A stretch of DNA of 10,649 nucleotides from Gammaproteobacteria bacterium. Lineage in GTDB: Bacteria; Pseudomonadota; Gammaproteobacteria; J113. Within the stretch, counting starts at the first letter, position 1. Every line of letters begins with the position of its first letter. A program made the translations under genes and the position numbers. Location: assembly GCA_003694425.1 (NCBI GenBank), contig RFJX01000140.1:1-10649 (forward strand). The letters run 5' to 3'. Under the pieces are notes generated by a model. That model did not search any database and was not told where the DNA came from. It was given only the letters and a program-made list of their open reading frames with translations. Of the stretch, positions 2 to 10,648 are shown piece by piece.

Positions 2-2248
2 TACAGCAAGGCGGTCAGCGTGCCACAGGTCGTCTCCACCGCCGGTGACAATGTTCAGCTGGACGACCGCATCTACTCGCCGCCGCCGACGATCACCAGA
101 GGCGGCGACATCGCCGCGGGCAAGCCGGTGACCATCTCCGCCACTATGGTCGACGGCTATACGGCCTACCAGTGGGAGATCGCCGAACGTACGACAACGA
201 TCACGCCCGAAGGCGGGGAGGGGGGGCTTGCCCCCTGGCGGATCGATGTCTATACCGGGTGGAACATCCTCGATACCAGCGTGGTGGCGAGCGGCACCCA
301 CTCGATCCACCTGGTGATGCCGGAATTCAAGCCGCAGATCATCACCCTGTTGCGTCACTTCCGGCCGACGGCCGCAAGCAGGCTCCAGTTCTTCTCCCGG
401 CTGGGCTGGGCCTCGACCGTTCAGACGGCGCGGGTGCAGGTGAGCGAGGATGATGGCGCAAGCTGGATCGATCTGTGGAGCCAGAACGGCACGGGCAGTG
501 CCGGTGAGGCGGCATTCACCCTGCGACAGGTCGATCTCTCCGCGTATGCCGGCAGGCGGATCATGCTCCGCTTTGCCTATGATCCCTACACCTCGGGCAG
601 TTATTTCCCGCAGACCGATGTCGGTGTGGGCTGGTACATCGACGACATCACCCTGACCAACGCCGAGGAGCTGATCAACGCCCGGACGGTGCAGACGCCC
701 GGCGATCGCTACACATGGACGCCGACGGCCACCGGCAGCTTCACCCTGCGCGCCCGCGCCCGGGTGGCCGGGGGTGGGTTCACCCGCTGGGGCACAGGCA
801 GGGATCTGGTGGTGGCGCAACAGCCCGGCGGCAACGGCGTCATCTCCGGTGTGGTCATGAGCAACAGCGCCACGCCAGGGGATCTCTACGCACTGGTCGC
901 CACGGATGCCGGATTGCAGCATATCGTTGCGATGGCCCCGGTCGATCCGACGAGCGGCGGCTACCGCGTGACGGGCCTGATCGATGGCGCCTACCATTTG
1001 GCTGCGATCGTCGATGTGAACCGCAACGGAGCCTACGACGCGGGGGAGCCGATGGCGCGGCTGCCGGCGAAGGTGACGATCTCCGGCGGCAATGCGGTGT
1101 CGGCGGCCGATTTGACCGTCGAGCGCTATCGGGTTCACGCCTGGAGCGGCCACGGCCAGGCGCCGGCGTCTGCCGGCTCGGGCCACCCGTGGAACAACAA
1201 TCCCTACTGGGTGCAGCTCGAGGTGGACGATCCCTATCAATGGGCGGACTCGGTGGTGGTCACCGGGGATGGGATCGGGAGCAGCCTGATGTTGGTGTAT
1301 GATCCCTACCAGGGGCGGTGGAGTTCCTCTCCGCAGCCGGGGAATGTCCTGTTCGGTCAGAGTGCGCCGACGGTTCCGCTGCATTACAACTTCGTGATCA
1401 CCGATGCCTACGGCCAGCACACCATCGGCGACTCGGTTGGTTTCTTCGTGCAGAATATGGTTACCGGTGTGCTGCCCGCCGACGGCAGCGTGGTGTCGGC
1501 CACACCGCAGTTCTCCTGGACGGGGGTGGCGGATGCGGGGGCAAGCTACGGGATTGCACTGCGCGACGGCTACGGCCAGACGGTGTGGAGCGTATCCGGC
1601 CTGACGCAGAACGGCTACGCCTACACCGGACCGGCATTGACCAGTGGCGCGCGCTACGACTACATCGTGTCGGTTTGTCTGCCCGATGGTCTGGACTGCA
1701 ACTTGTCGGAGGTTGCGCAGCGCTTCACCTATCAGCCCGGTGGCGGATCGGTGGGTCAGCGCTACACGCTGCAGGCGGGCTGGAACCTGATCAGCTTCCC
1801 GATGGATCCGGGGCCGAACGGCATCGCCGATTTCATCGCGGCGGTGCGGCAGGCCGGTGGCGCGGTGGCCTCCATCTGGGCCTACGATCCGACCAGGGCG
1901 GGGAGTCCGTGGCGCAGCTTCGTGGTCGCAGCGCCGGCGGTGGCCGATTTGACCTCCATCCAAGCGGGGGTGGGCTACTGGGTACGGTTGACGCGCGGGG
2001 CGAGCGTCACCCTGAGCGGGTCCAAGCCGGCAACAAACGCCCCCGTGCTGCACTCGGGCTGGAACCTGATCGGGGTGGACGCGCCGGTCGGTGACCTCTC
2101 CACCTGGCTGGGCGGGCTGGGGGCGTCGTCGGTGTGGAGCTTCGACGGACGGTGGTGGAGCAGCTACCGGCAGGGGGTGCCGGTCTTTCTCAACAGTCTG
2201 CAGCGGCTCGATGCCGGGGTCGGCTATTATCTCTGGCTCGCGCCCTGA
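2..2248 (+). CDS. 3' part of a large secreted multidomain protein with MAM-like, Ig-like, Fn3-like domains and a GWNLI-type C-terminal domain
   Basis: The reading frame is open from the left edge to the TGA at 2246-2248, and no ribosome-binding site or signal peptide precedes the first GTG (20), so the 5' end is missing. Residues are numbered from that GTG. Residues 75-215 resemble a MAM-like jelly-roll as found beside bacterial secreted peptidases: VQVSEDDGASW, then VDLSAYAGRRIMLRF, ending GWYIDDITL. Residues 225-266 look Ig-like. Residues 274-367 resemble a carboxypeptidase-regulatory/SdrD-B-like fold with an acidic DVNRNGAYDAGE loop. Residues 368-480 are unassigned and carry DPY and DAYG motifs. 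Residues 486-570 look fibronectin-III-like, with Cys553 and Cys560 able to form a disulfide. Residues 582-742 are the CTD shared with the convergent protease. No catalytic motif is visible; an enzymatic domain could lie upstream of the window. Function is unknown; an extracellular adhesion or substrate-binding role is inference. Coding status is secure, domain names are by pattern only. Confidence 0.9.
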   Translation, partial: YSKAVSVPQVVSTAGDNVQLDDRIYSPPPTITRGGDIAAGKPVTISATMVDGYTAYQWEIAERTTTITPEGGEGGLAPWRIDVYTGWNILDTSVVASGTHSIHLVMPEFKPQIITLLRHFRPTAASRLQFFSRLGWASTVQTARVQVSEDDGASWIDLWSQNGTGSAGEAAFTLRQVDLSAYAGRRIMLRFAYDPYTSGSYFPQTDVGVGWYIDDITLTNAEELINARTVQTPGDRYTWTPTATGSFTLRARARVAGGGFTRWGTGRDLVVAQQPGGNGVISGVVMSNSATPGDLYALVATDAGLQHIVAMAPVDPTSGGYRVTGLIDGAYHLAAIVDVNRNGAYDAGEPMARLPAKVTISGGNAVSAADLTVERYRVHAWSGHGQAPASAGSGHPWNNNPYWVQLEVDDPYQWADSVVVTGDGIGSSLMLVYDPYQGRWSSSPQPGNVLFGQSAPTVPLHYNFVITDAYGQHTIGDSVGFFVQNMVTGVLPADGSVVSATPQFSWTGVADAGASYGIALRDGYGQTVWSVSGLTQNGYAYTGPALTSGARYDYIVSVCLPDGLDCNLSEVAQRFTYQPGGGSVGQRYTLQAGWNLISFPMDPGPNGIADFIAAVRQAGGAVASIWAYDPTRAGSPWRSFVVAAPAVADLTSIQAGVGYWVRLTRGASVTLSGSKPATNAPVLHSGWNLIGVDAPVGDLSTWLGGLGASSVWSFDGRWWSSYRQGVPVFLNSLQRLDAGVGYYLWLAP
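1763..2245 (+). other. C-terminal domain of the plus-strand protein: two GWNLI half-modules
   Basis: This codes for residues 582-742 (numbered from GTG 20), about 161 residues. Module A starts at YTLQAGWNLISFP, passes an SIWAYD element and ends at VGYWVRL. Module B starts at GWNLIGVDAPVGDLS, passes SVWSFDGRWW and ends at LDAGVGYYLWLAP. The two modules share the order GWNLI, a Trp-rich S-[IV]-W strand, then [AG]-G-V-G-Y, so they look like an ancient internal duplication. The protease encoded opposite ends with the same two modules. There is no hydrophobic helix plus basic tail as in PEP-CTERM or GlyGly-CTERM signals. Being at the very C-terminus of two unrelated exported proteins suggests a sorting, anchoring or surface-binding role, which is inference. 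Confidence 0.75.
1776..1887 (+). repeat. Left arm of 112-bp inverted repeat (111/112 identical)
   Basis: The reverse complement of 2665-2776 matches this segment base for base except at 1869 (C here, A in the partner sense strand), which turns Ala into Asp. The arm codes for the first part of CTD module A, from GWNLISFPMDPGP to SIWAYD. Identity ends abruptly on both sides. Confidence 0.97.
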
Positions 2249-2312
2249 TGGAAACGGTGCGCGGATCCACACGCAACCGGAGGAGAACCGCTCCCATGCT
2301 GAACCCTGCTGA
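2249..2312. other. Convergent intergenic gap between the two GWNLI-domain genes
   Basis: These 64 bases separate two stop codons facing each other. I see no convincing intrinsic terminator. An imperfect 18-base hairpin (TGCG...CGCA, 2258-2275) lacks a T-run. A perfect 10-base palindrome GCTGATCAGC (2308-2317) overlaps the protease stop codon but has no loop. Without a strong terminator, transcripts from both genes could run into each other and overlap as antisense across the inverted repeat. Confidence 0.5.
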
Positions 2313-5300
2313 TCAGCGATAGACCCAGTAGCCGGCGCCGGGCTGCAGCGCGCGCAGGCTGTTGAGGTAGGAGGGTGAGCCGGCGACCACGCTCTGCCAC
2401 GCCCCATGCCGAAACCCCCAGACGGATTGGCCGCCGTTGGTGGTCAGCCATCCCGACAGGTCGCCCACCGGCGCGTCCACGCCGATCAGGTTCCAGCCGG
2501 GCAGCAGCGTCGGGCTGGTTGCGGCGGGGCTGCCGCGCATGGTGATGGTGATGCCCGCGCCCGCGCGCAGTTTGACCCAGTAGCCGACATTCGGTGCAAA
2601 CGCGGTCAGGCTGGAGAGGGTCGGCATCGAGACAAGGTGGCTCCGCCACCGTTTCCCCGCCGTGTCGTAGGCCCAGATGGAGTCCACCGCGCCACCGGCC
2701 TGCCGCACCGCCGCGATGAAATCGGCGATGCCGTTCGGCCCCGGATCCATCGGGAAGCTGATCAGGTTCCAGCCCGGATCGAGGGTGTACGATTGCACGA
2801 CGGCTGGCGGTGGCGTCCCCATCTGCAACACGAGCGGCGATCCGCCGGCGGCCGGTGCGGAGAGATCCTGCCCCGGCCAGGAGTAGATCTCGCGGTTTGC
2901 CGTGCCGGCATGGATGTCGAGCGTTGCGTAGCGGTCGAAATCGAGGGTGAACGAGGCGCTGCCGTAGCTGTCGGCGAACATCGCCATGCTGATGGTGCCG
3001 TTGCCGGCGCGGCCATACAGCCAGTGGCCGGCGGCAGGCTGGCCGTAGCGGTCCTGCAGCGTGATCCGGGCGGCGGCGTGGTTGGCGCTCTCACCGCTCC
3101 TTGCCCCCACCCGGTAGGCCATCAGACGCTGTTCGTAGTTGAACAGCGGGGCGCCGTAGGTGTCCTCGGCTGCTTCGCGGGCAAAGATGTCGCCGATCCC
3201 CTTGCCGTAGTATGTCTGCCATCGGTTTCGGTAGAGTGCGGTTCCGTAGCTGTCGAACACGGTTTCATATCCGATCAGCCGCACGAGGCCGGCCCTGGGA
3301 TCGCCGGCCCGCCCGTTCCACTGCCGGTCCCAGTCGGCGGAAAAATCGGGATGGGCGGGGTCGGCAAGGTTGTGGCCGGCGCCGGAGTAGTCGTCGCAGC
3401 TGATCACCTCGAGCATCGATCCCTGCCAGATCACCGCGCCATAGGCATCGCGCATCACCATCGCCAGCCGGCTCGAGTAGCTGCCTCCTGCCTGGATGGA
3501 GGGGGGCAGCAGCGGCGCGGGGGTGGTCAGTTGGCCGAAGTCGGGCTGGGCGGGGGTGGCGAAGCCGTAGTAGTCGATGGTGCTGGCCTGGTTGCCCAGG
3601 GCCGGATTGTCGATGCGCCGGGAGCCGAACCGGATCCAGCCGGTGGCGTCGTTGCGGAAATAGCGCAGCGAGCCGTCGCCGAAGAGGGTGGTGTTCGCCT
3701 GAATCCCGCCCTGAACCGTGTTCGCGGCGCCGGCAAAGGCGCGAAACCATACCGGCAGTGGACGTGCAGGATCGGATCCATCGATCGCCCGGTAGGCGCG
3801 GAAATCCCCGGTGGTCATGACCGGGTGGTAGTCGGTCAACAGATAGCTTGCCCCCTGTTGGCGCAGTGGGTCATCGGGGTAGGCGTCGATGACGGTTCCG
3901 GACTGCAGCGAGGCGTTGATCTGCTCGGCCGTGGCGCTCGCCAGCCAGCCGTCGGCGGCGCCGTCGCCGTCGCGGTCGCTGGCGACGGCGGGATCCTGGG
4001 CAAAGGCGTCCTGGGCGTCGGGTACGCCGTCACCGTCGGTGTCCGCGATGGTGTAGCCGGCCTGGATGGTGAAGGGGGTGTTGGCCAGGCCGGAGGCGTT
4101 GGTCACCACCGCATAGTAGAGCCTCGATGTCGGCGCGGCCACGGAGATCGATTCGTTGCCGCCGGGGCTGCCGCTGATCATGACATAGGGGTCGTTGGGA
4201 TCGATCCAGGTGCTGCCAGAGACCATGCCGAAGACCGGGATGCGATCCGGGCGCAGGATCAGGTCGATATCGGCGCCCGCCGTGGTGGTGACGGTGAGAT
4301 TGCGGGCGCCGGCCGGCAGCCAGATGTGGAACAGCTGGGCGTCGTCCTGTGCATCCTGCTGGATGGTGCGGCTGTAACGGATGCCGTTGGCCAGAGCGTT
4401 GGTCTCCAGCCGGAAGGTGCGGCGCGTCTGGTAGCCGCCGGCGGCGGTGATATCGAGCCACAGCGTGATCGGGTGGGAGGTTGCCATGGCCTCGATCCGG
4501 ATGCGGAAGGGGGTGGCCGGGGCGCCGTAGCCGTCGGTGGGCAGCTCGGGGTAGGCCGCCCGGCTGTTGACGATGCGCACCGCCGGGTCGCTGCTGCCAA
4601 GCGTGGCGGTGATGGCGCCAGCTTGCTGCCAACCGTTCTCCAGGGTGATGGAGAGATCGAGCGTTTCACCCGGGTCGGGCAGGCCGTCGCCATCCCCGAC
4701 CACCTCGCGAACGGTTACACCGCGAATCACCAGAACCGGCTGCGCCACCCCGCGCAGGGCGTTGTCGGCGTTGACCCGGCCATCGGTGGCCAGCAGCCCT
4801 GGGGGGGAGGCGAGCGGATCGACCCCCGCCATGATGCGCCCGCGCAGTTCGCTGAAGGTGGCGGAGGGATAGCGGGATTTGATCAGCGCGGCCACCCCGG
4901 CGACCAGCGGCGCCGAGAACGAGGTTCCCTGGATGAAGTCGTAATCGGTGGCGCCGCCGTTGCCGATCGGGTCGGTGGCGGCCATGGTGGTGAGGATCGA
5001 TTCCCCCGGTGCGGCCACATCGACGCTGAATGCGCCGTATTGGCTCCATCCGGTCAGGGCGCCCTGGTTGTCGCTGGCCGCCACGCTGAGGATGTTGGGA
5101 TTGGGCAGCCCCGAGGGATAGTCGTGCACCAGCTCGTTGTTGTTGCCGTCGTTGCCGGCTGCGACGACGAGGAGGATCCCTGCCTGCTGCAGCTGGGCGA
5201 CTGCCGCCTGCTCGGTCTGCGAGAAGCTGGAGCCGCCGAAGCTGGCGTTGACGATGTCGGCGCCGTTGGTGATGGCGTAATCCAGGGCGGCGACCTCACC

Positions 5301-6386
5301 GGCGACATCATAGGCGAACTTGAGCGGCATGATCGACACCTGCCACGCCACGCCGCTGATGCCGGTGGCGTTGTTGCCCACCGCGCCGATGGCGCCGGCC
5401 ACCGCGGTGCCGTGTCCTTCCGCAAATCCCGGATCGGGGGAGGGGTCGTTGTCGTTGTTGGTGAAGTCCCAGCCGTGGATATCGTCGATGTAGCCGTTGC
5501 CGTCATCGTCGAACCCGTTGCCGGCGATCTCGCCCGGGTTGCTCCAGATGTTGGCGTAGAGGTCGGGATGGTGGATGTCGACTGCGTCGTCGAGCACCGC
5601 CACCACCACTTGCCTGCTGCCGGTGGTGAGATCCCATGCGGCGGCCAGCGCCATATCCTCGCCGGGGGCACCGGGGGTGAACCCGGCGGGGTCGGGGACG
5701 GTCTGGCCGCTGTTGTGCAGCGCCCATTGCTGGCCGAACCTCGGGTCGTCGGGGAGCAGGCGCGGGTGGCGCAGGTAGTTGGGTTCGGCGTATTCCACCA
5801 GTCCGCTGGCCTGCAGTGTGCGGATGGTGGCGGCCAGACGCGCCTCGTCCACGCCGTCCAGCTGCCAGGTGTGGATGCGGGGCAACTGCCGGATCATCCG
5901 CAGCCCCAGCCGGTGGAGCAGGGCGCGCCGCTGTGCGGGACGGGCAGAAGGGAGGAAGCGCACCAGCAGTTGGCCGGGCACATGGTCGGCTGCGGCCGGT
6001 TTGCGGGCCGGGGGCCGGTTTTGCTGGCTGCCGGAGGCCAGCAGGTGGAGCTCGGTCGGCAGGGTGCTGCCGGTGTCCGTTCCGCTCCAGCGTAGCGCGG
6101 CGTTGTGCTCCCGGGTCAAACGGCGCAGCGCCCGGGCAGCGCTGACCGGAGCGGGGTCTGCCGGTGCGAGATCGACGCCGGGATCCACCACCACCCGCAC
6201 GCCGTGATGCCGCAGCAGCTCGATCAGCGGCGATGCGGCGGGCGCCGCCGGCTGCTGTACTGCGGCGGGGGCGCTGGCGCTCCACAAGATGGCGGCCATC
6301 CAGCAGCACGCGATGATCAGCTGTCGTATGATCCACCCCCGATTCGGGATCGTCAGACCGCGGCTCGACAGCGCAGCGGCCTCCAC
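2313..6386 (-). CDS. Secreted subtilisin-family (S8) serine protease with I9-like propeptide, accessory beta-sandwich domains and GWNLI C-terminal domain
   Basis: Numbering is from GTG at 6386 (1357 residues). The frame stays open to GTG 6488, but those 34 codons use many rare triplets (AGG, AGA, CTA, ATA) and contain a likely promoter, so I prefer the later start. A hydrophobic segment (23-35) followed by A-P-A (39-41) is a Sec signal peptide. Residues 52-121 form an extra domain with ALRRLTREHNAALRW. Residues 136-206 look like an inhibitor_I9 or fervidolysin-type propeptide ending YAEPNY. The catalytic domain (about 220-545) has Asp266 (VVAVLDD), His325 (GHGTAVAG), oxyanion Asn412 (AAGND) and Ser489 (GTSFSAP), so it should be active. 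A calcium-type loop FDDDGNGYIDD lies between Asp and His. After it come a beta-sandwich with DGDGLPDPGE (about 555-660), a PPC-like domain (660-778), a thrombospondin-3-like DTDGDG pair (782-812), an unassigned region, Ig-like segments with DRYGQP (about 1110-1165), and the CTD (1200-1357). Far longer than a plain subtilisin. Natural substrate unknown. Confidence 0.93.
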   Translation of the reverse strand: MEAAALSSRGLTIPNRGWIIRQLIIACCWMAAILWSASAPAAVQQPAAPAASPLIELLRHHGVRVVVDPGVDLAPADPAPVSAARALRRLTREHNAALRWSGTDTGSTLPTELHLLASGSQQNRPPARKPAAADHVPGQLLVRFLPSARPAQRRALLHRLGLRMIRQLPRIHTWQLDGVDEARLAATIRTLQASGLVEYAEPNYLRHPRLLPDDPRFGQQWALHNSGQTVPDPAGFTPGAPGEDMALAAAWDLTTGSRQVVVAVLDDAVDIHHPDLYANIWSNPGEIAGNGFDDDGNGYIDDIHGWDFTNNDNDPSPDPGFAEGHGTAVAGAIGAVGNNATGISGVAWQVSIMPLKFAYDVAGEVAALDYAITNGADIVNASFGGSSFSQTEQAAVAQLQQAGILLVVAAGNDGNNNELVHDYPSGLPNPNILSVAASDNQGALTGWSQYGAFSVDVAAPGESILTTMAATDPIGNGGATDYDFIQGTSFSAPLVAGVAALIKSRYPSATFSELRGRIMAGVDPLASPPGLLATDGRVNADNALRGVAQPVLVIRGVTVREVVGDGDGLPDPGETLDLSITLENGWQQAGAITATLGSSDPAVRIVNSRAAYPELPTDGYGAPATPFRIRIEAMATSHPITLWLDITAAGGYQTRRTFRLETNALANGIRYSRTIQQDAQDDAQLFHIWLPAGARNLTVTTTAGADIDLILRPDRIPVFGMVSGSTWIDPNDPYVMISGSPGGNESISVAAPTSRLYYAVVTNASGLANTPFTIQAGYTIADTDGDGVPDAQDAFAQDPAVASDRDGDGAADGWLASATAEQINASLQSGTVIDAYPDDPLRQQGASYLLTDYHPVMTTGDFRAYRAIDGSDPARPLPVWFRAFAGAANTVQGGIQANTTLFGDGSLRYFRNDATGWIRFGSRRIDNPALGNQASTIDYYGFATPAQPDFGQLTTPAPLLPPSIQAGGSYSSRLAMVMRDAYGAVIWQGSMLEVISCDDYSGAGHNLADPAHPDFSADWDRQWNGRAGDPRAGLVRLIGYETVFDSYGTALYRNRWQTYYGKGIGDIFAREAAEDTYGAPLFNYEQRLMAYRVGARSGESANHAAARITLQDRYGQPAAGHWLYGRAGNGTISMAMFADSYGSASFTLDFDRYATLDIHAGTANREIYSWPGQDLSAPAAGGSPLVLQMGTPPPAVVQSYTLDPGWNLISFPMDPGPNGIADFIAAVRQAGGAVDSIWAYDTAGKRWRSHLVSMPTLSSLTAFAPNVGYWVKLRAGAGITITMRGSPAATSPTLLPGWNLIGVDAPVGDLSGWLTTNGGQSVWGFRHGAWQSVVAGSPSYLNSLRALQPGAGYWVYR
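2316..2789 (-). other. C-terminal domain of the protease: two GWNLI half-modules
   Basis: This codes for residues 1200-1357 (from GTG 6386). Module A runs from YTLDPGWNLISFP through SIWAYD to VGYWVKL. Module B runs from GWNLIGVDAPVGDLS through SVWGFRHGAW to PGAGYWVYR at the extreme C-terminus. It aligns end to end with the CTD of the facing plus-strand gene. In module B the shared residues GWNLIGVDAPVGDLS are encoded with five synonymous differences in 15 codons, whereas in module A 35 of 36 codons are identical. Confidence 0.78.
2665..2776 (-). repeat. Right arm of 112-bp inverted repeat (111/112 identical)
   Basis: Partner of 1776-1887 in opposite orientation, with 777 bases between the arms. 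It codes for the same stretch of CTD module A in the same reading frame relative to its gene. The single mismatch makes Asp1235 here where the plus-strand protein has Ala617. Confidence 0.97.
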
Positions 6387-6393
6387 CCCGCTG

Positions 6394-6422
6394 ATTCTAC
6401 GGCATCCGGATAGGGTTGTCCA
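6394..6422 (-). promoter_or_regulatory. Candidate sigma-70 promoter of the protease gene
   Basis: Reading the minus strand, TGGACA (6422-6417) and TAGAAT (6399-6394) are separated by exactly 17 bases; each hexamer differs from the sigma-70 consensus at one position. It lies between the stop of the upstream FG-GAP gene (6485) and the protease signal peptide. A start of transcription is expected near 6387-6386, which falls on the in-frame GTG at 6386, so the message could be leaderless or nearly so. No clear Shine-Dalgarno sequence is visible before either GTG 6488 or GTG 6386. The 98-base gap (6387-6484) shows nothing else convincing, including no terminator for the upstream gene. Confidence 0.55.
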
Positions 6423-6484
6423 TATCGGGCGAGGTACGGCCAGGGGCCATGCTCCGCGCCTGTCGCATCCGATCGGGGCGCCGT

Positions 6485-9400
6485 TCACCTGCCGGGGATG
6501 AGGAGGGCAGCGCCCTGGCTGGTTCCCTGCAGATAGTTTGGCCAGATCAAGAGGATGTCCGCCTTGCCGTCGTTGTTGATATCACCCGCGGGCAGCGCCA
6601 AGGCAGTGGAGAGGAAGCTGTTCGGACGGCCGCCGTTGAGGCGGAAGAGCAGTCGGCCGTCCCGACCGGAGTAGACGCCGACCTCGCCTGCATCCACACC
6701 GGCATAGGGATCGTCCACGCCGGATGCGGCGATCGCCACATCGGTGAAGCCGTCGCCGTTCACATCGCCCACTTGCGCGATGAATCCACCCATGTTGTCG
6801 CCGGCGGCATTGCCGCTGAAGCGGTACAACTCGCCGCCACTCATTCCGGAAACCACCGACGCCCGGCCGGCATCGGTGCCGGCGTTCGTATCCGCCCATG
6901 GAGATCCGACTGCGAAATCCGCCACGCCGTCGTTGTTCCAGTCGAATAGCGGATAGGCGTTGCGAAGCCCTTCCCCTTGGCTTGTGCCGCGGGCCGCCAC
7001 ATAGAGCAGGGCGCCGTCGGCGCCGGAGCGCACCTCCACCCGCCCGGCATCAGTGTAGGGATCATCGGCCCCCTGCACGCCCACCGCCAGATCGCCAACA
7101 CCGTCGCCGTTGACATCGCCGATGTTCGTCAGCGCATAACCGGAAGCATCGCCCGCCTTCTGGCCGTAGGCGTTCCACAGCAGAGAGCCGTCTGCACCCG
7201 AGCGCATCTGCACTTCGCCGGCGTTCGCCCCATAGGCGTCGGAGCCCGGGATCCCCAGTGCCACATCCGCTTGGCCGTCGCCGTTGACGTCACCGGCGAC
7301 AGCGATGATACCGCCAAGAGCATCGTATCCTGCCGCTCCGCGGGCCTGCCACAGAATATGGCCGTCCACACCGGAGAGCAGTTGCACTTCGCCGGCATCG
7401 GCGCCTGCAAAGGGATCATCCGTTCCCGTTGCCCCGATGGCGAGATCGGTGTAGCCGTCGCCGTTGACATCGCCGACATCCGCTACCACGTCCTGGCCCC
7501 AGCGGTCGGATATCCAACCACCCCAACTGGCCTTTGTGGCATGGCCCGTGGCCCGCCACAGCAGTGTGCCGTCGGCTCCGGAGAAGAGGTGGAGCCTGCC
7601 GGCTTTGGTGCCGGCATAGGGATCGCTGGCGAAAGGCGCCGTGGCCGCCAACTCCCGCACTCCGTCGCCGTCGATGTCGCGGACGGCGATCAGCCGCCAA
7701 CCCAGGGCGTCGTGCGTCGCCTGGCCGTAGGCATCCCACAACAAGCCGCCGTCCACGCCGGAGCGCACCTCCACCCGGCCGGCGTGGGTGTAGAGATCGC
7801 TGGCACCGGGAAACCCGAGCGCGAAGTCGGTGACGCCGTCGCCGTTGACATCACCCAGCACTACCGCCTGTGTTGCGGGAGATGGATCGCGCACCATGTA
7901 CAGTGGCGAGACGAAGGCGGCATCGGCCGGCGCCCCGGCAAAGGCGTATTCCAGCAGATCACTGGCGCCGTCGCCGTCCGTATCCACGAGCAGGGGATTG
8001 CTGCCGAGGGCCACCTCCGCCCCGTCGCTCAGGCCGTCGCCGTCGGTGTCGGAGTTCAGCGGATCGGTGCCGGTGTCGGTCGCGGAGACGAAGGTGCCTC
8101 TGTTCGTCTCCACGCCGTCCTTCAGGCCGTCGCGATCCGTGTCGGGATTCAGCGGATCGGTGTCGACACCCCAGTCGTAGGCGTGGGGATCGGCGCCGCC
8201 GGCGATCTCCACCGAATCCGTCAGGCCGTCGCCGTCGGTGTCCGCCCTGGTCGGGTCGAGATCGTAGCCGGCGTCATACGTGTAGGGATCGAGCCAGCTT
8301 GCATAGGCGATCTCCATGCTCGTGGTAAGACCATCGCCGTCGTGATCCGTCTGCGCGATCAGGGGATCGGTGCCGATCGCCTTCTCGGCACCGTCGGAGA
8401 CGTGGTCGCCGTCGGTGTCGGGATTCAACGGATCGGTGTCCACGCCGGCGTCGAAGGCGTAGGGATCGGCGCCGCCGGCCACCTCCGCACCATCGCTCAG
8501 GCCGTCGCCGTCGGTGTCGGCCAGATAGGCCCTGGTGCCGAGCATCTTCTCCAGCGCATTGGAAAGGCCGTCGCCGTCCGTGTCCGGATTCAGCGGATCA
8601 TCGCCCAGCAGATATACGTGCCAGCCGTCCTTCAGTCCGTCGCCGTTCGTGTCATCGCTGTAGGGATCGGTGCCGATCGCCTGCTCGTAGCTGTCCAGCA
8701 GACCGTCGGCGTCGCTGTCGCCCACAAGCCTGGGCGCGAACAGGAAGCTACGTCCCTGCAGATTGTATGCCGCGCCGTACACATCCGTAAGGCTTGTATG
8801 GGCGTATCCGGTGCCGGCGCTGATGCCGGAGCCTGCATCCACATTGTCGCCCTGATCGAACTTGATATAGCGCAACAGGATGTAGCCGTTGGGGTAGAGC
8901 ACGGCCTGGAAGTGGTTGACCATGTTGGAATCTTCGTCGTAGTTGGTCTCCACCGACCAGTCGGCCACCAGCCGCTGCGGCATGCCCTTCGCCTGCAACC
9001 TGCCGCCATCGCCGTAGTAATAGGAGGTCAGGTCATCGTTCCAGACGCTGATCACCGGCGGGTTGCCGACAACCCCATTGGCAAGCGTGAAGCGCGAGGC
9101 GGAGGCCGCCCCCGCCCCCAGCCACAGGTTGCCGTTGGTGTCGATGCCCACCGCATACACGTCCCTGCCGTAGAAGGGGAAGGGGAACGGCATGGCGTAG
9201 AGATCCGCCGTCACATTGTCGCCGCTTGCTGCGGCCTGTGGCGCATCCAGCACCTCGGCGGAGGAGAAGAGGCGGTAGGCGCTGACATCCAGGAGATCAT
9301 AACCGTGGATGGCCCCCACGTGCGCCGGATTGCTGTAGGGGTCGGCGGGATCGGTGCCCGCGCGCAGCTCAAGGGGATCGGGAGTGCCGTCGCCGTCCGT

Positions 9401-10648
9401 ATCCCATACCGCGGCCTTCGGATCCAGGCCCCATGCCAGCTCCACGGAATCACGCACGCCGTCGCCGTCGCTGTCCGCCCGTGTTGGATCGGTGCCGAGG
9501 GTTGCCTCCGCCCCATCCTTCAGCCCGTCGCCGTCCGTATCAGGGTTGCGCGGATCGCTGCCTGCCTGCAACTCATCCTTGTCGTTCAATCCGTCGCCGT
9601 CGGTGTCCGTCTTGGCGGGATCGCTGCCGCCGAAGAGTTCGTCGCGGTCGCTGATGCCGTCGCCGTCGGTATCCCCGCGGCCCCAGCCGGCGGGAAGGAA
9701 TGCCTGTTGGGACGCGATGTCCCCCTTCATCAACGCCGGTGGATGAACACCCGGCCATGCTCCGGCGTGATAGACATAACTGTAGCCGTCATTTGCGGTG
9801 TAGGCGATCCAGCGGGAATCGGGGGAGAACGAAAATCGCTGGTATATGGATCCGTCCGGGGGGGATTCGATGGCGGCGACGGTTCCGGCAAGCGGCCCGC
9901 CATCCATGGGCAGGACGCCGGCCTTCACAACAGGGGAAAATGTGACATTCACATACTCTGCCCCCCCCGTGCCACGAGAAAAATAACCCGAGCCCGATGT
10001 GTGGAAAACACCGGGTTCCGGATGGCCGAGGAACGACACCGCTTCGTACCGCGGAAATCCCCATAGATCCGTCCAGGTATGCAGCTCGACGCGGGCGCCG
10101 TCTAAACCATATGGCATCCATAAACCGACGCCAGGAAGCCAGTACCCTGAAGATCCATTCCCCGGATACCACGCAGAAGGATCGGTATCGCAATAATACG
10201 CCCATACCTGGTAACCTTCCAAGGCAGTTTGGATGTTGCCTGCCTTCCATACCCCCTGCCCGCCGGGGCATACGGGAAAGCGGGACTCGCTTGGCGGTAC
10301 GGTTTCGTTGCGCACCAAGTAACGACCACTATGCGCGCTCTTCGACCAATGATCCGTAAGCCCATTGCCGACCTTCACCACCCGGTTGCGATGCAACGTG
10401 CGATCTCCGCCGCCGGCAATGGAAACGGCGTGAACCTCCGTACTGTACCACTGCCACTCCAAGGCAGGGCCTCCCCAGGCATAACTCGTCCCCGACCAGG
10501 TGCTCAGGCTCGCATCCCAACCATAGGGGTCGAACAGATAGGCTACCTCGGTGCCGTCGGGGGAGACCATGGGCGCTTTGCCCTTCGCCAGTGTGGAGAG
10601 GGTATAGGGGTCACCCTGTAGCATGGGCCCGAAATCCAGGGCCATGAT
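6485..10648 (-). CDS. 3' part of a giant calcium-binding exported protein: TolB/WD40-like region, thrombospondin-3 arrays, nidogen-like sandwich, FG-GAP propeller
   Basis: The frame is open to the right edge and the first ATG (10645, residue 1 here) has no visible signal peptide, so the true start probably lies outside. Residues 1-300 contain two TolB/WD40-like signatures (VSPDGTEVAYLFD near 27 and FSPDSRWIAYTAND near 273), suggesting the end of a propeller. Residues 325-437 hold five thrombospondin type 3 loops (DTDGDG type) about 22 residues apart. Residues 445-640 resemble a nidogen-like or related sandwich domain: FPFPFYGRDVYAVGIDTNG, later WNDDL and FQAVLYPNGYILLRY. Residues 641-897 hold ten more type 3 loops. 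Residues 928-1386 hold eight FG-GAP motifs (GDVNGDGxxDxAxG) about 58-69 apart, consistent with a complete integrin-alpha-like propeller. It ends LLIPGR and lacks the GWNLI CTD of its neighbours. Role is probably adhesion or surface structure stabilised by calcium; this is inference. No catalytic residues are recognisable. Confidence 0.92.
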   Translation of the reverse strand: MMALDFGPMLQGDPYTLSTLAKGKAPMVSPDGTEVAYLFDPYGWDASLSTWSGTSYAWGGPALEWQWYSTEVHAVSIAGGGDRTLHRNRVVKVGNGLTDHWSKSAHSGRYLVRNETVPPSESRFPVCPGGQGVWKAGNIQTALEGYQVWAYYCDTDPSAWYPGNGSSGYWLPGVGLWMPYGLDGARVELHTWTDLWGFPRYEAVSFLGHPEPGVFHTSGSGYFSRGTGGAEYVNVTFSPVVKAGVLPMDGGPLAGTVAAIESPPDGSIYQRFSFSPDSRWIAYTANDGYSYVYHAGAWPGVHPPALMKGDIASQQAFLPAGWGRGDTDGDGISDRDELFGGSDPAKTDTDGDGLNDKDELQAGSDPRNPDTDGDGLKDGAEATLGTDPTRADSDGDGVRDSVELAWGLDPKAAVWDTDGDGTPDPLELRAGTDPADPYSNPAHVGAIHGYDLLDVSAYRLFSSAEVLDAPQAAASGDNVTADLYAMPFPFPFYGRDVYAVGIDTNGNLWLGAGAASASRFTLANGVVGNPPVISVWNDDLTSYYYGDGGRLQAKGMPQRLVADWSVETNYDEDSNMVNHFQAVLYPNGYILLRYIKFDQGDNVDAGSGISAGTGYAHTSLTDVYGAAYNLQGRSFLFAPRLVGDSDADGLLDSYEQAIGTDPYSDDTNGDGLKDGWHVYLLGDDPLNPDTDGDGLSNALEKMLGTRAYLADTDGDGLSDGAEVAGGADPYAFDAGVDTDPLNPDTDGDHVSDGAEKAIGTDPLIAQTDHDGDGLTTSMEIAYASWLDPYTYDAGYDLDPTRADTDGDGLTDSVEIAGGADPHAYDWGVDTDPLNPDTDRDGLKDGVETNRGTFVSATDTGTDPLNSDTDGDGLSDGAEVALGSNPLLVDTDGDGASDLLEYAFAGAPADAAFVSPLYMVRDPSPATQAVVLGDVNGDGVTDFALGFPGASDLYTHAGRVEVRSGVDGGLLWDAYGQATHDALGWRLIAVRDIDGDGVRELAATAPFASDPYAGTKAGRLHLFSGADGTLLWRATGHATKASWGGWISDRWGQDVVADVGDVNGDGYTDLAIGATGTDDPFAGADAGEVQLLSGVDGHILWQARGAAGYDALGGIIAVAGDVNGDGQADVALGIPGSDAYGANAGEVQMRSGADGSLLWNAYGQKAGDASGYALTNIGDVNGDGVGDLAVGVQGADDPYTDAGRVEVRSGADGALLYVAARGTSQGEGLRNAYPLFDWNNDGVADFAVGSPWADTNAGTDAGRASVVSGMSGGELYRFSGNAAGDNMGGFIAQVGDVNGDGFTDVAIAASGVDDPYAGVDAGEVGVYSGRDGRLLFRLNGGRPNSFLSTALALPAGDINNDGKADILLIWPNYLQGTSQGAALLIPGR
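6488..7864 (-). repeat. Eight FG-GAP (integrin-alpha-like) propeller repeats
   Basis: Calcium-loop motifs of the DxNxDG type start near residues 931, 989, 1058, 1118, 1177, 1235, 1293 and 1354 of the protein (numbered from ATG 10645). Most blades then carry an AG-[RE]-x-x-x-x-SG strand and a DG-x-L-[LFY] strand. The second blade has RDIDGDG, the sixth DWNNDG and the last DINNDG, so these are the most divergent. A seven-bladed closed propeller plus one overlapping strand, as in integrin alpha chains, is the likely fold. Confidence 0.85.
7955..8725 (-). repeat. Thrombospondin type 3 repeat array B, ten calcium loops
   Basis: Loops start near residues 643, 665, 688, 710, 743, 767, 802, 835, 867 and 889 and read DTDGDG or variants (DSDADG, DTNGDG, DHDGDG, DTDRDG). 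Spacing alternates between about 22-24 and 32-35 residues. The longer units carry an insertion such as GGADPYAFDAGVDTDPLNP or GGADPHAYDWGVDTDPLNP. On the plus strand the array shows as recurring GCCGTCGCCGTCGGTGTC-like words. Confidence 0.85.
9335..9673 (-). repeat. Thrombospondin type 3 repeat array A, five calcium loops
   Basis: Loops begin at residues 325, 347, 369, 391 and 415 (DTDGDG four times, DSDGDG once) with a regular 22-residue period, the last 24. Each is followed by an acidic helix-like DELxxGSDP or GAExxLGTDP segment. The array joins the TolB/WD40-like region to the nidogen-like sandwich domain (about 8726-9313). Confidence 0.85.

Follow-up and report, generated by a model that had tools for sequence, protein, structure and literature searches.

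A near-identical 112-base inverted repeat inside two convergent paralogous domains suggests recent recombination between its arms

Two convergent genes of a gammaproteobacterial genome share a block of 112 bases within C-terminal domains that are otherwise well diverged, and inside that block not a single synonymous difference separates them. We consider it likely that this identity goes back to recombination in the recent past, in which one arm of an already existing inverted repeat was copied one way onto the other, by gene conversion or template switching. As far as a single genome allows testing, the locus displays the features of an ectopic gene-conversion tract: silent-site identity inside diverged paralogues, and another paralogue that was not homogenised.

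The inverted repeat and the genes that carry it

The window (the whole stretch of DNA that was analysed, 10,649 nucleotides) is the entire contig C235 of a source genome of 2.08 Mb that consists of 301 contigs and is 76% complete. The relevant features are:

2..2248, forward strand: gene 1, encoding a large protein, 5' end cut by the contig edge
1776..1887, forward strand: arm 1, within the C-terminal domain of gene 1 (GWNLISF...SIWAY)
1888..2248, forward strand: tail of gene 1 past the block (remainder of module A, module B, stop)
1888..2664, no strand: spacer of 777 bases, made up of the two diverged tails with their stop codons and the 64-base intergenic gap
2027..2110, forward strand: module B stretch, 75% match to 2445-2528 on the reverse strand
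2055..2071, forward strand: the 17-base word CGGGCTGGAACCTGATC (GWNLI), which also forms the block's left edge, at 1776 (forward) and 2760-2776 (reverse)
2313..6488, reverse strand: gene 2, open frame of 1391 amino acids, subtilase (PF00082) with a Fervidolysin-like prodomain
2313..2664, reverse strand: tail of gene 2 past the block (remainder of module A, module B, stop)
2665..2776, reverse strand: arm 2, within the C-terminal domain of gene 2, equal to arm 1 at 111 of 112 bases in sense orientation

The two genes face each other across the intergenic gap (2249-2312) and carry at their C-termini a two-module domain with a GWNLI word in each module. Since they are convergent and end in paralogous domains, their 3' ends constitute an old, diverged inverted repeat. 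Gene 1 is without a Pfam match above the cut-off. The subtilase encoded by gene 2 is probably secreted; its database protein (P0006) is given as 1328 amino acids, versus the 1391 of the open frame. The large protein that adjoins the subtilase (6485-10645, reverse strand) contains ten bacterial TSP3 and eight FG-GAP stretches.

The same C-terminal domain also ends a third large protein, encoded on contig C15 (gene 3), which is the one other clear paralogue in the genome (three further matches, at E 0.04-0.15, are weak and were left out), and it is found on other protein bodies in P0002, P0003 and P0007. The domains of these three jgi proteins are 82-89% identical, although similarity between their bodies is confined to scattered and repeated pieces. 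Elsewhere, the domain family yielded 27 matches at E 1e-6, in six of the nine other genomes searched; a Methanomassiliicoccales genome (G369) holds 14 domain-family matches (L041, L044, L048 and L052 among them), three of which lie within 7 kb. The structure model of the domain has a mean pLDDT of 82 and a pTM of 0.57. None of the 156 Foldseek matches obtained with this model had an E of 0.001 or less and no PDB sequence matched the domain at E 1, and therefore the fold gives no function for it.

No orthologue of gene 1 or gene 2 was found in searches of proteins, named contigs, and genomes of relatives and of the class. The first and second protein searches, which scored the 7,999 and 7,995 candidates that shared most words, returned the window's own protein together with four others (24-47% identity over about half of the query) and with 25 others (28-47% over 40-47%), respectively, and a third search gave three matches (27-40%). 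The first of these covered proteins of about 411-1309 amino acids only, and could thus have overlooked a longer full-length orthologue of the truncated gene 1. Matches to ten named genome contigs were at 28-34%. Two of 56 genomes of relatives matched (the source genome itself and, weakly, G033), as did two of 369 genomes of the class (again the source genome, and weakly G239); at the DNA level 15 of the 369 genomes had a match, the 14 others over 22-57 bases only.

Divergence inside and outside the block

The first-pass annotation had described the repeat as a sharply bounded block of 36 complete codons, 35 of them identical including third positions, and recounting bears this out at 1776-1887 (forward) and 2665-2776 (reverse): 111 of 112 bases agree, the longest perfect run is 93 bases, synonymous changes are zero, and the only differing codon results from the mismatch at 1869/2683 (Ala in gene 1, Asp in gene 2). 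The five synonymous differences that it reported for the 15 codons of the conserved module B stretch GWNLIGVDAPVGDLS were likewise recovered. Its statement that the sequence after SIWAYD is barely alignable was too strong: 116 codons align past the block, and the whole C-terminal domains of genes 1 and 2 are 60% identical at the protein level (96/159).

The comparison of synonymous divergence that the annotation had proposed came out as it expected. By the Nei-Gojobori method, dS is 0 within the block (36 codons, 26.0 synonymous sites) and 0.93 in the 116 codons that can be aligned beyond it; divergence is already high in the seven codons before the block, where about three quarters of the synonymous sites differ. 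When three segments with free edges were fitted, the change points fell exactly at 1776 and 1887, with identities of 99.1% inside and 57.8% outside, and none of 300 codon shuffles reached the gain of this fit. The module B stretch (2027-2110/2445-2528) represents ordinary paralogous divergence adjoining the block.

Chance is excluded as the origin of the identity. None of 20,000 column shuffles produced a run of 112 with one mismatch (the longest was 43), and a run of 32 identical silent codons was reached in two of 200,000 silent-codon shuffles; identical silent codons number 32/32 in the block versus 26/51 after it (Fisher p 2.6e-7). Codon bias alone was rejected for the block, with a log10 P of about -10 over the 35 same-residue codons when usage is taken from the window's genes and codons are treated as independent. 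Past the block, 32 of the 57 same-residue codons are identical versus 28.1 expected from the codon usage of the window's genes, and therefore codon usage explains the flank.

Gene 3 served as the control. Over the block its dS is 1.71 to gene 1 and 1.81 to gene 2, and because it differs from both, a shared nucleic-acid constraint fails to account for their identity. The first-pass annotation had offered recombination between the arms or a DNA- or RNA-level constraint as explanations; the contrast in dS, the exact edges and the diverged gene 3 speak for the former, whereas the gene 3 values speak against the latter. In a three-sequence run test the pair of genes 1 and 2 gave a strong signal (0/20,000), genes 1 and 3 were not flagged (12,020/20,000) and genes 2 and 3 gave a weaker signal (a run of 9 informative sites in 11/20,000 shuffles). 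Silent-codon identity with gene 3 was also raised within the block (10/17 and 10/18, versus 11/44 and 12/50 after it; p 0.018 and 0.020, which are not independent). We read these signals as mild conservation around the GWNL.SFPMD motif, which falls far short of producing 32/32.

The age of the block can be bounded. With no change over 26 synonymous sites, dS could be as high as about 0.115 (Poisson, 95%), which is still some eight times lower than in the tails, and it is within this limit that the transfer is called recent.

How the block may have come to be shared

The copying that we favour would have started from the inverted repeat that the convergent paralogous domains form by descent. 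A stretch of one copy, 112 bases or more in length, would have been pasted over the other in the fairly recent past, one way, either by gene conversion or by a polymerase that switched template between the arms. The 17-base GWNLI word shared at the left edge may mark the start or end point of this transfer; the word recurs at 2055-2071, and strand invasion or template switching could have begun from it. Between the two tails no perfect match exceeds 17 bases, which is short for a RecA-type strand exchange; this and the identity of only 58% between the copies outside the block count against the proposal. RecA is encoded in the genome. A Chi site of the E. coli motif occurs once in the window (at 8965), and none is near the arms. 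Gene 3 has Asp at the arm mismatch, as does gene 2, which at this one site hints that the older state is that of gene 2. That the transfer went one way is likewise our inference, as gene conversion, template switching and crossover inversion leave the same footprint in one sequence.

The last of these routes leads to the strongest alternative, namely that the arms bound an invertible segment, in which recombination flips the 777-base spacer, swaps the C-terminal tails in frame and, when repeated, keeps the arms identical. Both arms lie in the same codon phase and a flip of the spacer therefore keeps both frames. As in spnIII, long inverted repeats occur in frame within paralogous coding sequence, and the pneumococcal hsdS inverted repeats, of 85 and 333 bases, are described in PMC6620402 as recombining without RecA; in yeast, template switching between inverted repeats results in homogenised arms as well as an inverted spacer, according to PMC8604942. 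However, swapping in frame is what homology entails and cannot count as independent evidence. The protein searches returned no protein with swapped tails, with the provisos that no second sample of the organism was found and that the first search was limited to about 411-1309 amino acids while gene 1 is cut. No recombinase family matched in the three large frames of the contig, which ends inside gene 1 with the far side out of view, and the recombinases of the 76%-complete genome comprise two of the tyrosine and none of the serine type. Compared with site-specific invertons, whose repeats are given as 10-40 nucleotides in PMC11892184, the arms are longer, at 112 bases. The contig is unbroken through both arms, which would imply one dominant orientation. 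Taken together, an invertible segment seems to us rather unlikely, and the particular form in which a recombinase-free switch exchanges the tails of the subtilase and its neighbour by spacer flips, and so keeps the arms identical, would be an improbable one.

Recombination between the arms, as a one-way copy, also has to be weighed against an artefact in the assembly of a fragmented metagenome genome. The number of contigs and the incompleteness of the genome make this conceivable, and ends that look like fold-backs exist elsewhere (contig C5, and C233 with C245). Exact overlaps between contig ends reach 99 bases in one pair and another pair shares a 98-base end, and therefore the assembly word was probably about 99; the perfect run of 93 bases is just shorter. 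On the other hand, the arms are at least 1775 bases away from the contig ends and retain a mismatch. Both lie in long open frames that run on into separate, diverged tails with stop codons of their own, whereas a fold-back would have copied the flanks too. An artefact is for these reasons very hard to believe. A perfect 112-base repeat would probably break the contig, and the mismatch may therefore be the reason why the block is visible at all; the assembly would conceal any perfect repeats of this kind at other places in the genome.

We inspected the repeat background in 81 of the 301 contigs, including the window (531,719 bases). Ten of these read as N, and in the 506,838 readable bases of the other 71 no other such repeat was found away from contig ends. 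When one copy was required to lie over 150 bases away from any contig end, shared 60-mers were limited to the window's own and those of a single pair, L135/L146 (positions 1-216 of each, on contigs C233 and C245), an inverted match of 216 bases at 98% that starts at both contig ends. With the threshold at 50 bases and 95% identity, the list grew by an inverted match of 60 bases (L079/L097), a direct repeat of 85 bases close to the end of C15, and matches at contig ends. Contig C5 (L072, 1-165) has a near-perfect terminal palindrome of 165 bases (97.6%), probably an assembly fold-back or repeat end. The ends of L070, L071, L099, L100 and L141 have a sequence of 76-98 bases in common, seemingly a repeat that breaks the assembly; three of these ends also match L119 exactly over 42-44 bases.

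As to the block itself, the search for further copies suggested by the first-pass annotation found two in all in the 76%-complete genome, the next match being 29 bases at 86%; a mobile or repeated element was rejected on that copy number, on the lack of any exact match of a 40-base word of the block among viral contigs and on the lack of an Rfam match at the gathering cut-off. In a pairwise DNA search of the 27 domain loci, L010-L019, L020 and the window, in which the window pair was reported as a single longer match of 76%, no pair of copies at 95% or more was found beyond the window block and overlapping pieces of the same contig. L045 and L049 share a 74-base reverse match (80%).

The constraint at the DNA or RNA level (a binding site, a structure or codon selection), for which the identity of every third position and the somewhat more frequent silent identity with gene 3 might be cited, is exceedingly improbable given the block dS of 1.7-1.8 to gene 3, the lack of any Rfam family at the gathering cut-off in the window and the fact that the two mRNAs would not pair with each other because both carry the block in the same sense.

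Relation to known systems and significance

Several systems with related repeats are known. Near-identical inverted arms in coding sequence have likewise been attributed to the copying of one arm from the other (PMC8604942); those arms are short (at least 7 bases, spacers up to 70) and the events were placed on a strain tree, whereas here 112 bases and a 777-base spacer involve two genes of one genome. The pneumococcal spnIII hsdS genes (PMC6620402) also have long inverted repeats between related gene copies, of which a flip would swap gene parts, but there the inversion was measured and the system has its own recombinase gene, creX, while the present locus has shown no inversion and its contig no recognised recombinase. 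In invertons (PMC11892184) inverted repeats similarly flank a segment that overlaps genes, but these repeats are bound by an invertase, and no invertase was recognised near the much longer arms described here. The coding palindromes of Nematomorpha mitochondria (PMC6649704) are also long inverted repeats within protein-coding sequence; they are numerous, perfect and up to 284 bp long in mitochondrial genes, in contrast to the one pair in two paralogous bacterial genes. A search of open-licence papers brought up none whose title or abstract opening describes such a bacterial case. The mechanism is already known and the locus is a clean, well-bounded new example of it.

The locus also singles out an in-frame inverted repeat with a short spacer, and whether it flips could be read directly from sequencing reads. 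More generally, it suggests patching at the DNA level between neighbours that share a C-terminal domain on different protein bodies, and such patching would mislead trees and selection tests on these domains.
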